This document shows positions 4,474-8,489 of a DNA stretch of 38,729 nucleotides, piece by piece; the first letter of the stretch is position 1, and every line of letters begins with the position of its first letter. A program made the position numbers and the translations under genes. The notes beneath the pieces are model-generated. The model was not told where the DNA came from. It saw only the letters and a list, made by a program, of their open reading frames with translations, and made no database searches. Source of the DNA: Actinomycetota bacterium (GTDB lineage Bacteria > Actinomycetota > Acidimicrobiia > Acidimicrobiales > Ilumatobacteraceae); contig SXPV01000034.1 of NCBI GenBank assembly GCA_005793215.1, forward strand, positions 1 through 38,729, in the 5' to 3' direction.

Positions 4474-5202
4474 TTACGCGGTGAAGGCGTCGTAGCCGTC
4501 GCGCTCGAGTTGGTCGGCCAGTTCCGGCCCACCGCTTGCAACGATTCGTCCCTTGGAGAGGATGTGCACGAAGTTGGGTTTCAGATCCGCAAAGATTCGG
4601 CTGTAGTGCGTGATCACCAACACACCCAACTTGCGCTCGTTGGTGAGGTCCTCCACGCGTCGCGCACAATCACGTAGAGCGTCGATGTCCAACCCCGAGT
4701 CGAGCTCGTCGAGCACGACGATGCGCGGGTCCAGCATGGCAAGCTGCAAGGTCTCGTTGCGCTTCTTCTCCCCACCCGAGAAATCGACGTTTACGGCGCG
4801 ATGGATGAGTGCTTCATCCAGCCCGATTCGGACGGCCTCTGCACCGATACGCGTGGCGAGTTGTGACTGGTTGCTCCCCCGCTCCGCGAGTGCCTCGTTG
4901 AGCAGTTCGTCGATTCCCACTCCGGGAATCTCGGTTGGGTACTGCATTACTAGGTGCAGTCCGGCAAGTGCCCGCTTCCATGTCGGCAGCGACACGACGT
5001 CGACATCGTCCAGGGTGATGGATCCTTGTGTGATGGCGTAACCGGGTTTGCCCATGATCGCCGCCGAGAGCGTCGACTTTCCGGCGCCGTTTGGCCCCAT
5101 CACCGCGTGCACCTCGCCCGAGCGAACGGTGAGGTTGATGCCATTCAAAATCTGTGTGTCGCCCGCCTTGGCGTGAAGATCACGAATGGACAGCACGGTC
5201 AC
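4474..5202 (-). CDS. sufC: Fe-S cluster assembly ATPase SufC
   Basis: ABC-type ATPase that drives the SufBCD scaffold, cytoplasmic. The ORF track adds about 65 spurious N-terminal residues. The real start is the GTG at 5202, which overlaps the TGA of the ferredoxin gene (GTGA) and gives 242 aa (VTVLSIRDLHAKAGD), close to the family length of about 250. Visible motifs are Walker A GPNGAGKST (about 36-44), signature FSGGEKKRNE (the EKKRNE ending is SufC-specific), and Walker B/D-loop VLDELDSGLDIDAL. It is the last gene of the leftward suf operon. No sufS or sufU follows in this window. Confidence 0.96.
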   Translation of the reverse strand: MTVLSIRDLHAKAGDTQILNGINLTVRSGEVHAVMGPNGAGKSTLSAAIMGKPGYAITQGSITLDDVDVVSLPTWKRALAGLHLVMQYPTEIPGVGIDELLNEALAERGSNQSQLATRIGAEAVRIGLDEALIHRAVNVDFSGGEKKRNETLQLAMLDPRIVVLDELDSGLDIDALRDCARRVEDLTNERKLGVLVITHYSRIFADLKPNFVHILSKGRIVASGGPELADQLERDGYDAFTA

Positions 5203-5564
5203 GGCTGCGCCCGCCTTACTCGGGGGGCGGACGATGCGGCGTTCAACGAGGGCTGATCGGAGATGTACACGTCGCTGCCACGAACTTCGACGACGAACAC
5301 AGGTACGGGCTGCGTAGCGGGAAGCGTGCTTGGCACGCCGGTTTCCAAACTGAATGCGCTGCCGTGGCGAATACACGACAACTGTTTGGTGTCGCAATCA
5401 ACGTCACCATCGGCGAGTGCCACATCGGCGTGACTGCAACGGTTGCCGATGGCATACACCTTGTCGTTGATTCGCACCACTGCCACAACATGTTTGCCAA
5501 CCTCGAACTTTGCGGCAGCACCGTTGGACAAGTCGTCGAGTGCGCAAATGCGGTGCATGGTCAT
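5199..5564 (-). CDS. Rieske-type [2Fe-2S] ferredoxin of the suf operon
   Basis: A 121-aa soluble Rieske protein. The cluster ligands are C43-S-H45 and C64-I-R-H67 (CSH...CIRHG), and the fold-typical HGSAFSLETG follows. It overlaps sufD upstream (ATGA) and sufC downstream (GTGA), so it is translationally coupled to both. A ferredoxin of this kind between sufD and sufC is a recurrent actinobacterial arrangement, usually annotated as a non-heme iron oxygenase ferredoxin subunit. No oxygenase is nearby, so I infer an electron-transfer or Fe-S role in Suf assembly. This is not proven by the sequence. Confidence 0.92.
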   Translation of the reverse strand: MTMHRICALDDLSNGAAAKFEVGKHVVAVVRINDKVYAIGNRCSHADVALADGDVDCDTKQLSCIRHGSAFSLETGVPSTLPATQPVPVFVVEVRGSDVYISDQPSLNAASSAPRVRRAQP

Positions 5565-6706
5565 GCCCGCGCTCCGGCGTTGCTTGTAGCACTGGTTGTA
5601 TCGCCCAGCAACTTGCGGCCTACCTTGTCGCGAAGCGCATCGGGTTGTGCGGCTGCCGGCAGACGATTGATCACATCAGCGAAGAAACCGAACACCACCA
5701 AGCGCTCGGCGATCTCCGGCCGTATGCCGCGGCTTTCCAAATAGAAGCGCTGCTCATCGTCGATGGGGCCAACGGTGCTGGCGTGACTGCACTTCACGTC
5801 GTTGGTTTCGATCTCCAGGTTGGGCACGCTTTCGGCCCACGAACCACTGGAGAGCGTGAGGTTGCGGTTGGTCTGGAACGCTTCCGACTTGTCCGCGTTG
5901 TCACGAATCTTGATGAGCCCCGTGTACACGCTCTTGGCGTGATCCTTTACCGCGCCCTTGAACAACAGATCGCTGTGTGTGCGTGGGGCTGCATGATCCT
6001 GCAATGTGCGGAAGTCGTGCATCTGCGTGCCGTCGGCGAAATACAACGCAACTTGTTTGGCTGATGCGCCTTGGCCAATCAATCGAACCCCGGCACGAAT
6101 ACGCGCATAGTCGCCGCCGAGGGCAATGGTGGAAGTTGAGATGGTCGAGTCACGCCCACCGAGTGCTCGCTGATAGCCGATGAGCCAGGTGTTTGCGCCC
6201 AACTCGTTGATTGCAACATAGGTAACGCGGGCGGATTGTGCGGCACGAATCTTCACCATCGGCACCACGAGTGAACGGCACTGGTCGTCGGATTGGAATC
6301 GCTCCACCACCGTGACTTCGCTGTTCTCTGCTGCGTCGATCTCCAACGACGGAAAGCACATGATTCCCGTGTCGTGCACGTGGTGAGTGATGAGAATCGG
6401 GTCCGCAATTACTTGACCACGAGTCGTGCCAATGCGCACCACGCCGCGATGCGTGGTTCCAACAGTGTCGGGCTGGCCGCCCGGGGCCGTGTGCTGTGCA
6501 TGCAACTGCTCGAATACGTCGGCCGGCTCCACCGTTACATCGCTCAACATCAACTGTGCGTCGCGAGAGACCACCGACTCGTCGCCCAACACCGTGGTGG
6601 TGCTGGCTCCGACTGAGTACGCGCCGAGATCAAGCTCGCCGATACGGCTGTAACGCCACAGTTCCTGCTCAGCGGTGGGCAGCACGAGATCGGCAAGTAC
6701 GGACAC
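5561..6706 (-). CDS. sufD: Fe-S cluster assembly protein SufD
   Basis: Scaffold partner of SufB and SufC, 381 aa, with a GTG start at 6706. The upstream gene ends in a run of AAG lysine codons (AAGAAGTAG), which may act as its purine-rich ribosome site 5 bases before the start. The beta-helix core is recognisable: SDLLFKGAVKDHAKSVYTG, then NLEIETNDVKCSHASTVGPID and QRFYLESRGI. The KCSHA..G segment is characteristic of SufB/SufD C-termini. It shares a 4-bp ATGA overlap with the ferredoxin gene. Confidence 0.95.
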   Translation of the reverse strand: MSVLADLVLPTAEQELWRYSRIGELDLGAYSVGASTTTVLGDESVVSRDAQLMLSDVTVEPADVFEQLHAQHTAPGGQPDTVGTTHRGVVRIGTTRGQVIADPILITHHVHDTGIMCFPSLEIDAAENSEVTVVERFQSDDQCRSLVVPMVKIRAAQSARVTYVAINELGANTWLIGYQRALGGRDSTISTSTIALGGDYARIRAGVRLIGQGASAKQVALYFADGTQMHDFRTLQDHAAPRTHSDLLFKGAVKDHAKSVYTGLIKIRDNADKSEAFQTNRNLTLSSGSWAESVPNLEIETNDVKCSHASTVGPIDDEQRFYLESRGIRPEIAERLVVFGFFADVINRLPAAAQPDALRDKVGRKLLGDTTSATSNAGARA

Positions 6707-6711
6707 TGCGC

Positions 6712-7050
6712 CTACTTCTTGCGCTTCTTGTTGCGCTTGAACTTCTTCGGTTTGCCACGCTCCAACTCACTCACTACGTCGGGTGCAATGGCGTTGATGA
6801 TCGACTCGGCCTCGCTCAGAATCGCTGCAGCACTGCCGTCGTCGAGGCTGGCTGGTGCCGCCGGAGCGGCACCCGTTACGAGCGTGCCGTGGGTCCAGCC
6901 CACATCCATTGCACGGCGGTCGAACTTGGGGCAATCGGCTGGACAACGCCAGGGTGCCTCGGGCGCAAGACCCAATTTGCAACCACGTACGGTGTCGCCG
7001 TTCTTGTAGGTGCGACTTTCAAAGTGGCGACAATCGGTGCGCATCGACAT
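6712..7050 (-). CDS. Small four-cysteine protein between sufB and sufD, unknown function
   Basis: The ORF track hides this gene at the end of a 412-aa antisense shadow. The plausible start is the ATG at 7050 (MSMRTDCRHFESRTY), giving 112 aa that fit the 43-base space after sufB. Residues 1-50 hold C7, C24, C36 and C40 (spacing x16, x11, x3) in DCRHFESRTY, GCKLGLAPEAPWRCPADCPKFD. That suggests a zinc or Fe-S site. The middle is Ala-rich. A helical stretch, AAILSEAESIINAIAPDVVSEL, precedes a very basic tail, KPKKFKRNKKRKK, that could bind nucleic acid. I do not recognise a named family. Position and spacing suggest a Suf-linked role, which is inference only. Confidence 0.75.
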   Translation of the reverse strand: MSMRTDCRHFESRTYKNGDTVRGCKLGLAPEAPWRCPADCPKFDRRAMDVGWTHGTLVTGAAPAAPASLDDGSAAAILSEAESIINAIAPDVVSELERGKPKKFKRNKKRKK

Positions 7051-7088
7051 GACGAGAGAAACGGTAGTTCGCAAAGGCTGCAGTGGGT

Positions 7089-8489
7089 TCAGCCCACCGA
7101 ACCTTCCATCTGCAACTCGATCAGACGGCTCCATTCCACTGCGTATTCCATCGGCAACGTGCGGGTGACGGGTTCGATGAAACCGTTCACCACCATGCCC
7201 ATGGCCTGCTCGGGTGTCAGCCCACGACTGGTGAGGTAGAACAACTGTTCGTCGGCGATCTTGGACACGGTGGCTTCGTGGCCGATTTGCGCATCGCGCT
7301 CGCCCACTTCCATGTACGGGAAGGTGCGGCTCTCTGAATCTTCGTCGAGGATCAGTGCATCGCACTGCACATGGCTCTTGCAGCCAGTTGCACCCTCTTC
7401 TACCCGCACCAAACCTCGATATGCGGTGATGCCGCCGTCTTTGCTGATCGACTTGGAAACGATCTTCGAGGTGGTCTCCGGAGCAGCATGCACCATCTTG
7501 GCGCCGGCATCTTGATGTTGACCGGCACCTGCATATGCAACCGACAACACTTCGCCCGTGGCCTTGGGGCCGACGAGATACACGCTTGGGTACTTCATGG
7601 TGAGTTTGGAGCCGATGTTGCCATCGATCCACTCCATGTGTCCCTCGGCCTCCACTCGCGCCCGCTTGGTAACGAGGTTGTACACGTTCGGTGACCAGTT
7701 CTGAATGGTGGTGTAGGTGACGTGCGCACTCGGCTTCACCACGATTTCCACCACGGCAGAGTGCAACGAGTCGTTGGTGTATACGGGAGCCGAGCAACCT
7801 TCGATGTAATGCACCTTGGAACCCTCGTCGGCGATGATCAGCGTGTGCTCGAATTGTCCGGCATTTTCGGAATTGATGCGGAAATACGCCTGCAACGGCA
7901 TTTCGCACTCCACTCCCGGCGGCACGTAGATGAACGAACCGCCCGACCACACCGCGGTGTTGAGCGCGGAGAACTTGTTGTCACCAGGTGTAATCACGGT
8001 GCCGAAGTACTGCTTCACCAAGTCGGGATACTCGCGGAGCGCGGTGTCCATGTCGCAGAACAGAATTCCCTGCTGTTCGAGATCATCACGATTGCGGTGG
8101 AACACCACTTCGCTCTCGTATTGCGCGGTAACGCCGGCGAGGTACTTGCGCTCGGCCTCGGGGATGCCGAGTTTTTCGTAGGTTGCCTTCATCTGCTCGG
8201 GGAGGTCGTCCCACTCGCTCACCTGTTCGGTCGCGGGCTTCAAGTAGTAATAGATGTCCTGGAAGTCGAGATCCGGCATGTTGACCGCGAACCACTCGGC
8301 CATGGGCTTTTTGTCGAAAGTGTTGAGGGAACGAAGGCGCATCTTGCGCATCCACTCCGGCTCGCCCTTCCACCACGAGATCTGCTCCACCACTCGGTCG
8401 TTGAGACCCTTCTCCGGGGTGAAGGCGTATTCGACGTCGTCGCTCCAACCCAGAGAGTATTTGGAGAGGTCGAGATCGAAGCTGGTCAT
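7089..8489 (-). CDS. sufB: Fe-S cluster assembly protein SufB
   Basis: Core scaffold on which the nascent Fe-S cluster is built, 466 aa, matching the family's usual 465-480. Landmarks are SWWKGEPEWMRKMRLRSL at the N-terminus, VWSGGSFIYVPPGVECEMPLQAYFR in the middle, YIEGCSAPVYT, and the C-terminal CDALILDEDSESRTFPYMEV and EATVSKIADEQLFYL. The ATG at 8489 is supported by AGGAGA 8 bases upstream. First gene of the operon. No sufR-like repressor gene is adjacent, unlike in many actinobacteria. Confidence 0.97.
   Translation of the reverse strand: MTSFDLDLSKYSLGWSDDVEYAFTPEKGLNDRVVEQISWWKGEPEWMRKMRLRSLNTFDKKPMAEWFAVNMPDLDFQDIYYYLKPATEQVSEWDDLPEQMKATYEKLGIPEAERKYLAGVTAQYESEVVFHRNRDDLEQQGILFCDMDTALREYPDLVKQYFGTVITPGDNKFSALNTAVWSGGSFIYVPPGVECEMPLQAYFRINSENAGQFEHTLIIADEGSKVHYIEGCSAPVYTNDSLHSAVVEIVVKPSAHVTYTTIQNWSPNVYNLVTKRARVEAEGHMEWIDGNIGSKLTMKYPSVYLVGPKATGEVLSVAYAGAGQHQDAGAKMVHAAPETTSKIVSKSISKDGGITAYRGLVRVEEGATGCKSHVQCDALILDEDSESRTFPYMEVGERDAQIGHEATVSKIADEQLFYLTSRGLTPEQAMGMVVNGFIEPVTRTLPMEYAVEWSRLIELQMEGSVG

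Follow-up and report, generated by a model that had tools for sequence, protein, structure and literature searches.

A conserved, previously unnamed four-cysteine protein family encoded in the suf operon of Acidimicrobiales: a tentative client or sensor of the Suf machinery

INTRODUCTION

The WhiB-like (Wbl) proteins of actinobacteria are 80–140 aa long and combine four invariant cysteines with a positively charged C-terminus, mostly without a recognisable DNA-binding domain; a G[V/I]WGG motif follows the last cysteine (PMC6282962). A eukaryotic 60S assembly factor, the RNA-binding protein Mak16, has an N-terminal domain with a proven [4Fe-4S] cluster on the motif CX11-13CX9CX4CP, at a site that was modelled as metal-free or Zn-bound in earlier cryo-EM structures (PMC12646323). 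In Mycobacterium tuberculosis, the regulatory gene sufR heads the suf operon, sufRBDCSUT (PMC9045647). Here, we compare these systems with a small four-cysteine protein whose gene lies between sufB and sufD in the order Acidimicrobiales.

RESULTS

In the window (the whole 38,729-nt stretch of DNA that was analysed), a first-pass annotation had placed a 112-aa gene at 6712–7050 between sufB and sufD, without stating its strand, and had assigned it to the operon by its spacing. The coordinates are right and the strand is minus. The gene encodes an orphan protein, here called the four-Cys protein; it starts with ATG at 7050, stops at 6714–6712 and is the second gene of a suf operon that runs entirely on the minus strand in the order sufB, four-Cys gene, sufD, Rieske ferredoxin gene, sufC. 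Upstream, sufB (7089–8489; TIGR01980, E 9e-212) ends 38 nt before it, and downstream, sufD (5561–6706; TIGR01981, E 3e-69) begins with GTG after only 5 nt. The Rieske-type ferredoxin gene (5199–5564) overlaps the end of sufD by 4 nt, and its stop codon in turn shares a 4-nt overlap with the GTG start of sufC (4474–5202; TIGR01978, E 2e-82). A Rieske-type ferredoxin gene between sufD and sufC is kept in much of the class Acidimicrobiia.

The gene had also been described as hidden in a shadow ORF, and it does lie within longer mechanical ORFs on both strands: the ORF caller reports a single 412-aa GTG ORF on the minus strand (6712–7950), which crosses sufB out of frame, and the plus strand has an ORF of 247 aa there. 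This overlap is the one point in favour of a spurious or overpredicted ORF, a reading with practically no probability that the conservation data already refute. A homologue is present in 192 of 198 Acidimicrobiales genomes, about 174 of them apparently with the full-length gene (counted from E-values, E below 1e-20) and the remainder with matches to a short form only. All four cysteines are invariant in 110 of 110 order-level homologues, together with R13, A29, P30, A32, P33, W34, P37, R46 and D49, and the four-Cys motif occurs in every one of 203 profile matches in the fetched loci, with the exact x16-x11-x3 spacing in 201. Against its nearest relatives the gene has NG86 dN/dS ratios of about 0.03–0.07 (for example, dN 0.024 and dS 0.85 against the homologue at locus L031); judged by these ratios, it is under strong purifying selection. 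Of the conditions named with the first-pass annotation, cysteine invariance and codon-level conservation of the frame came out in favour of the gene. The 112-aa ORF is a genuine gene and belongs to a strongly conserved, previously unnamed family.

The cysteines fall at positions 7, 24, 36 and 40 and the tail is very basic, exactly as annotated. The four-Cys domain (C7–C40, C-x16-C-x11-CP-x2-C; 6931–7032, minus strand) carries a beta hairpin (residues 10–14 and 20–24) in an AlphaFold2 model computed with 103 relatives. An acidic amphipathic helix spans residues 73–99 (6754–6834, minus strand; pLDDT 92–98 in its core), and the Lys/Arg tail KPKKFKRNKKRKK forms residues 100–112 (6715–6753, minus strand). 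The mean pLDDT is 85, with a confident hairpin domain and helix and a low-confidence tail, and the pTM of only 0.42 leaves the arrangement of the domains undefined. The hairpin recurs, at lower confidence, in a model computed for a short form. Charge is conserved as well: in each of the 188 long homologues, residues 59–95 carry a net charge of -3 to -15 and the last 20 residues one of +3 to +14. The Cys motif is common to suf-linked, unlinked and short forms, and full-length members away from suf keep the same tail and helix.

We scored linkage to suf in loci drawn from about 50 families of Acidimicrobiales, 53 of which had enough flanking sequence. In 38 of the 53, sufB lies upstream and sufD downstream of the four-Cys gene on one strand; sufB alone is found in five, sufD alone in four and neither in six, of which two (L227 and L250) adjoin sufS-sufU or lie no more than about 5 kb from it. 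The gene is within a suf cluster in 49 of the 53 loci, and its annotation as a member of the operon holds across the order. In some loci, other genes are inserted between it and sufB or sufD and cluster membership is retained; it remains with sufB or sufD even where insertions split the operon or sufD has moved, and the linkage has persisted across about 50 families though the surrounding genes changed.

Two further arrangements were seen at suf loci of the order. At 10 loci, several of which carry Microthrix or marine labels, the four-Cys gene comes after sufB and no sufD was detected nearby; sufD may have been lost there, may be divergent or may lie at another site. In many Acidimicrobiales (10 loci recorded), a convergent sufS-sufU operon faces the sufB-D-C operon, and sufS often has another SufC-like gene next to it.

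The position between sufB and sufD is not constant across the class. In other orders of Acidimicrobiia, the full-length homologue is away from suf, near tRNA-Leu(tag), and sufB and sufD are adjacent to each other; in about a dozen of these loci it lies downstream of what we take, from sequence, to be a murI-rph-rdgB block. A short paralogue of 55–60 aa, consisting of the Cys domain only, is likewise unlinked to suf and occurs in many of the same genomes. The expectation that the gene always lies between sufB and sufD therefore fails, both for the full-length gene in other orders and for the short paralogues. At several of the 22 short-paralogue loci recorded, the upstream neighbour, on the other strand, is presumably a NUDIX-like gene, and the genes downstream are presumably LarE-like and NIL-domain genes (assigned by eye). 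Such neighbours hint at sulfur metabolism but vary in strand and lineage.

Several SufB-bearing families of the class have no four-Cys gene (genomes G242, G254 and G484). In one family without it (f64), the gene directly after sufB (locus L329, 11457–12116) is presumably a NucS-like endonuclease, as judged by eye. SufB is interrupted by an intein in other orders of the class, at L282 (genome G602), at L335 (genome G242) and also in G620 and G660, with the domains Intein_splicing, Hint and LAGLIDADG in the Pfam run, which covered G602 and G242 only.

A poorly resolved gene tree requires four changes in linkage to suf, a number that a single gain and a few losses could explain. Neither profile gave a match at E<=0.001 in about 365 genomes sampled from the other classes of the phylum, and the weak matches of a second out-of-class search (E 0.005–0.1) look like chance; viral contigs held no relative. 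As far as tested, the family is confined to the class Acidimicrobiia, as sampled within the phylum and, beyond it, in curated libraries.

With the window protein and 103 relatives as queries, HMMER searches of Pfam, NCBIfam and PHROGs yielded scattered chance matches only, profile searches of PDB sequences found no relative, and Foldseek found no significant structural neighbour in the PDB or BFVD. Neither sequence nor structure searches detected a DNA- or RNA-binding domain in the protein. Searches for RNA families in the suf operon returned none, and in the literature searched we found no paper that names Acidimicrobiia or Acidimicrobiales along with suf terms. With the short form, Foldseek returned chain CC of three pre-60S entries (E 3–5), one titled 'State Mak16'; these matches are noise-level. 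The weak alignment of DUF5787 (PF19100) across the four-Cys region (E 0.14) belongs to one of 103 members only and scores 12.3 bits against a Pfam gathering cut-off of 25 bits, far too low for membership; in the control genomes, the sole DUF5787 match was in the archaeon Haloferax volcanii.

The four-Cys protein is WhiB-like in layout, with four invariant cysteines, small size and a positive C-terminus, yet it is not a Wbl member by profile, motif or fold. The Wbl profile (PF02467) has no match at E<=1 in the 103 members, nor at E<=10 for the window protein. In place of G[V/I]WGG, the family has D-x-G-W-x-x-G (conserved D49, W52 and G55); its x16-x11-x3 spacing differs from that of Wbl proteins, and its predicted beta hairpin contrasts with the helical WhiB1 fold. 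The likeness to Mak16 comprises four widely spaced cysteines with a CP motif, central helices and a charged, disordered C-terminus. However, the spacing differs (CX11-13CX9CX4CP in Mak16, CX16CX11CPX2C here), the Mak16 fold is L28e-like and no sequence or significant structure match joins the two, so that Mak16 serves as an analogy only.

Small genes in or near suf operons also encode SufU, SufT and A-type carriers, but the four-Cys protein has no NifU_N, DUF59 or Fe-S_biosyn match. It is neither a SufU/IscU scaffold (NifU_N, PF01592, unmatched) nor an A-type Fe-S carrier (Fe-S_biosyn, PF01521, unmatched), and the genome has separate genes for both. Across the genomes searched, SufU is present in 53 of 59 and A-type carriers in 54 of 59. 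A replacement for either, and the carrier role put forward in the first-pass annotation, are therefore unlikely.

In the Acidimicrobiales loci inspected, no sufR-like gene stands in front of sufB. The gene found there varies and is presumably, by eye, YchF-like GTPase, peptidase-like, carbonic-anhydrase-like or others, identities that are approximate because neighbouring genes were called crudely, from GC-contrast ORFs. Some genomes encode SufR-like proteins at other sites, none of which exceeds the curated cut-off. In many Acidimicrobiales, a winged-helix gene with weak SufR similarity lies just upstream of an A-type Fe-S carrier (for example, G002 contig C1 at about 4,004,000, G003 contig C14 at about 90,000, and others). 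This gene is a candidate Fe-S regulator, of a more ordinary kind than the four-Cys protein.

DISCUSSION

We tentatively favour, at somewhat less than even probability, a mechanism in which the four-Cys protein is a Suf-supplied metal protein that acts on nucleic acid as a client or sensor of the Suf machine. Starting from the observed gene, its conservation, its architecture and its operon position, we infer a bound metal, contact with nucleic acid and dependence on Suf. The four invariant cysteines would hold one metal centre on the beta-hairpin domain, more likely a [4Fe-4S] cluster than Zn; the long acidic helix would provide a protein–protein surface, perhaps for a dimer or a partner; and the disordered Lys/Arg tail would touch nucleic acid. 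In Acidimicrobiales, the gene would be co-transcribed within the suf operon, so that the protein is made when clusters are made. Its action at DNA or RNA would then depend on the cluster, and it would not be a structural part of SufBC2D.

We prefer a client or sensor to a machine part because the same protein persists where it is not linked to suf and is missing from some SufB-bearing families. Because the Cys centre and the tail are kept in every context, also off suf, what the protein itself does is not specific to suf; its lasting linkage in one order points to a supply of the protein, or a need for it, that tracks cluster assembly. The linkage in 49 of 53 loci and the small number of linkage changes on the tree favour the client-or-sensor mechanism. 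By analogy, the spacing of the cysteines comes fairly close to that of the Mak16 motif, and a similar four-Cys layout in Mak16, once modelled as Zn-bound or metal-free, proved to be a [4Fe-4S] site. On the other side, a basic tail can equally bind acidic proteins or ribosomes, and the locus in other orders holds no hint of Fe-S, so that the place of the gene in suf may be an accident of long standing.

Two other mechanisms were weighed. The protein could be a small Zn-binding nucleic-acid or ribosome-associated protein with no functional tie to Fe-S, its suf position an old insertion passed on by vertical descent. Zn proteins that bind nucleic acid or ribosomes commonly combine a beta hairpin, four cysteines and a Lys-rich tail, the unlinked members share this architecture and the few changes on the tree allow simple inheritance. 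However, the linkage has outlasted neighbour turnover in about 50 families, including insertions on either side, the protein has no CxxC zinc knuckles and its x16-x11-x3 spacing is atypical for Zn ribbons; we consider this account rather unlikely. Alternatively, the protein could bind SufB or SufBC2D and tune cluster assembly or transfer in Acidimicrobiales, its tail attaching to an acidic surface while the Cys domain handles Fe, S or a nascent cluster. Its closely spaced position between two scaffold genes, and its staying with sufB or sufD despite insertions or relocation of sufD, would fit such an accessory, which the first-pass annotation had also suggested. Yet the family is unlinked in other orders that have tight sufB-sufD operons, its tail and helix are unaltered there, and SufU and the A-type carriers leave no gap to fill. 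Because the linkage is not universal and several SufB-bearing families have no such gene, the protein is not a core SufBCD part, and the accessory claim is weakened to one that we regard as unlikely.

There is room for a regulatory role in suf itself, and the cluster-sensing regulator suggested in the first-pass annotation is a possible function. In its most specific form, the protein would be an independently evolved, class-specific Fe-S sensor, WhiB- or SufR-like in action, whose four-Cys centre would sense cluster supply and whose basic tail would regulate suf or its mRNA from inside the operon; we judge this form very improbable.

The Suf pathway is regarded as a well-defined parts list, and here an operon gene found across an order is unnamed in every library that we searched. 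That order, Acidimicrobiales, includes abundant freshwater and marine lineages. If the four-Cys protein carries a cluster, its domain would be a new Fe-S-binding domain. If it is cluster-bound, the coupling of cluster supply to gene expression would become testable in these actinobacteria, whose inspected loci have no sufR-like gene before sufB.
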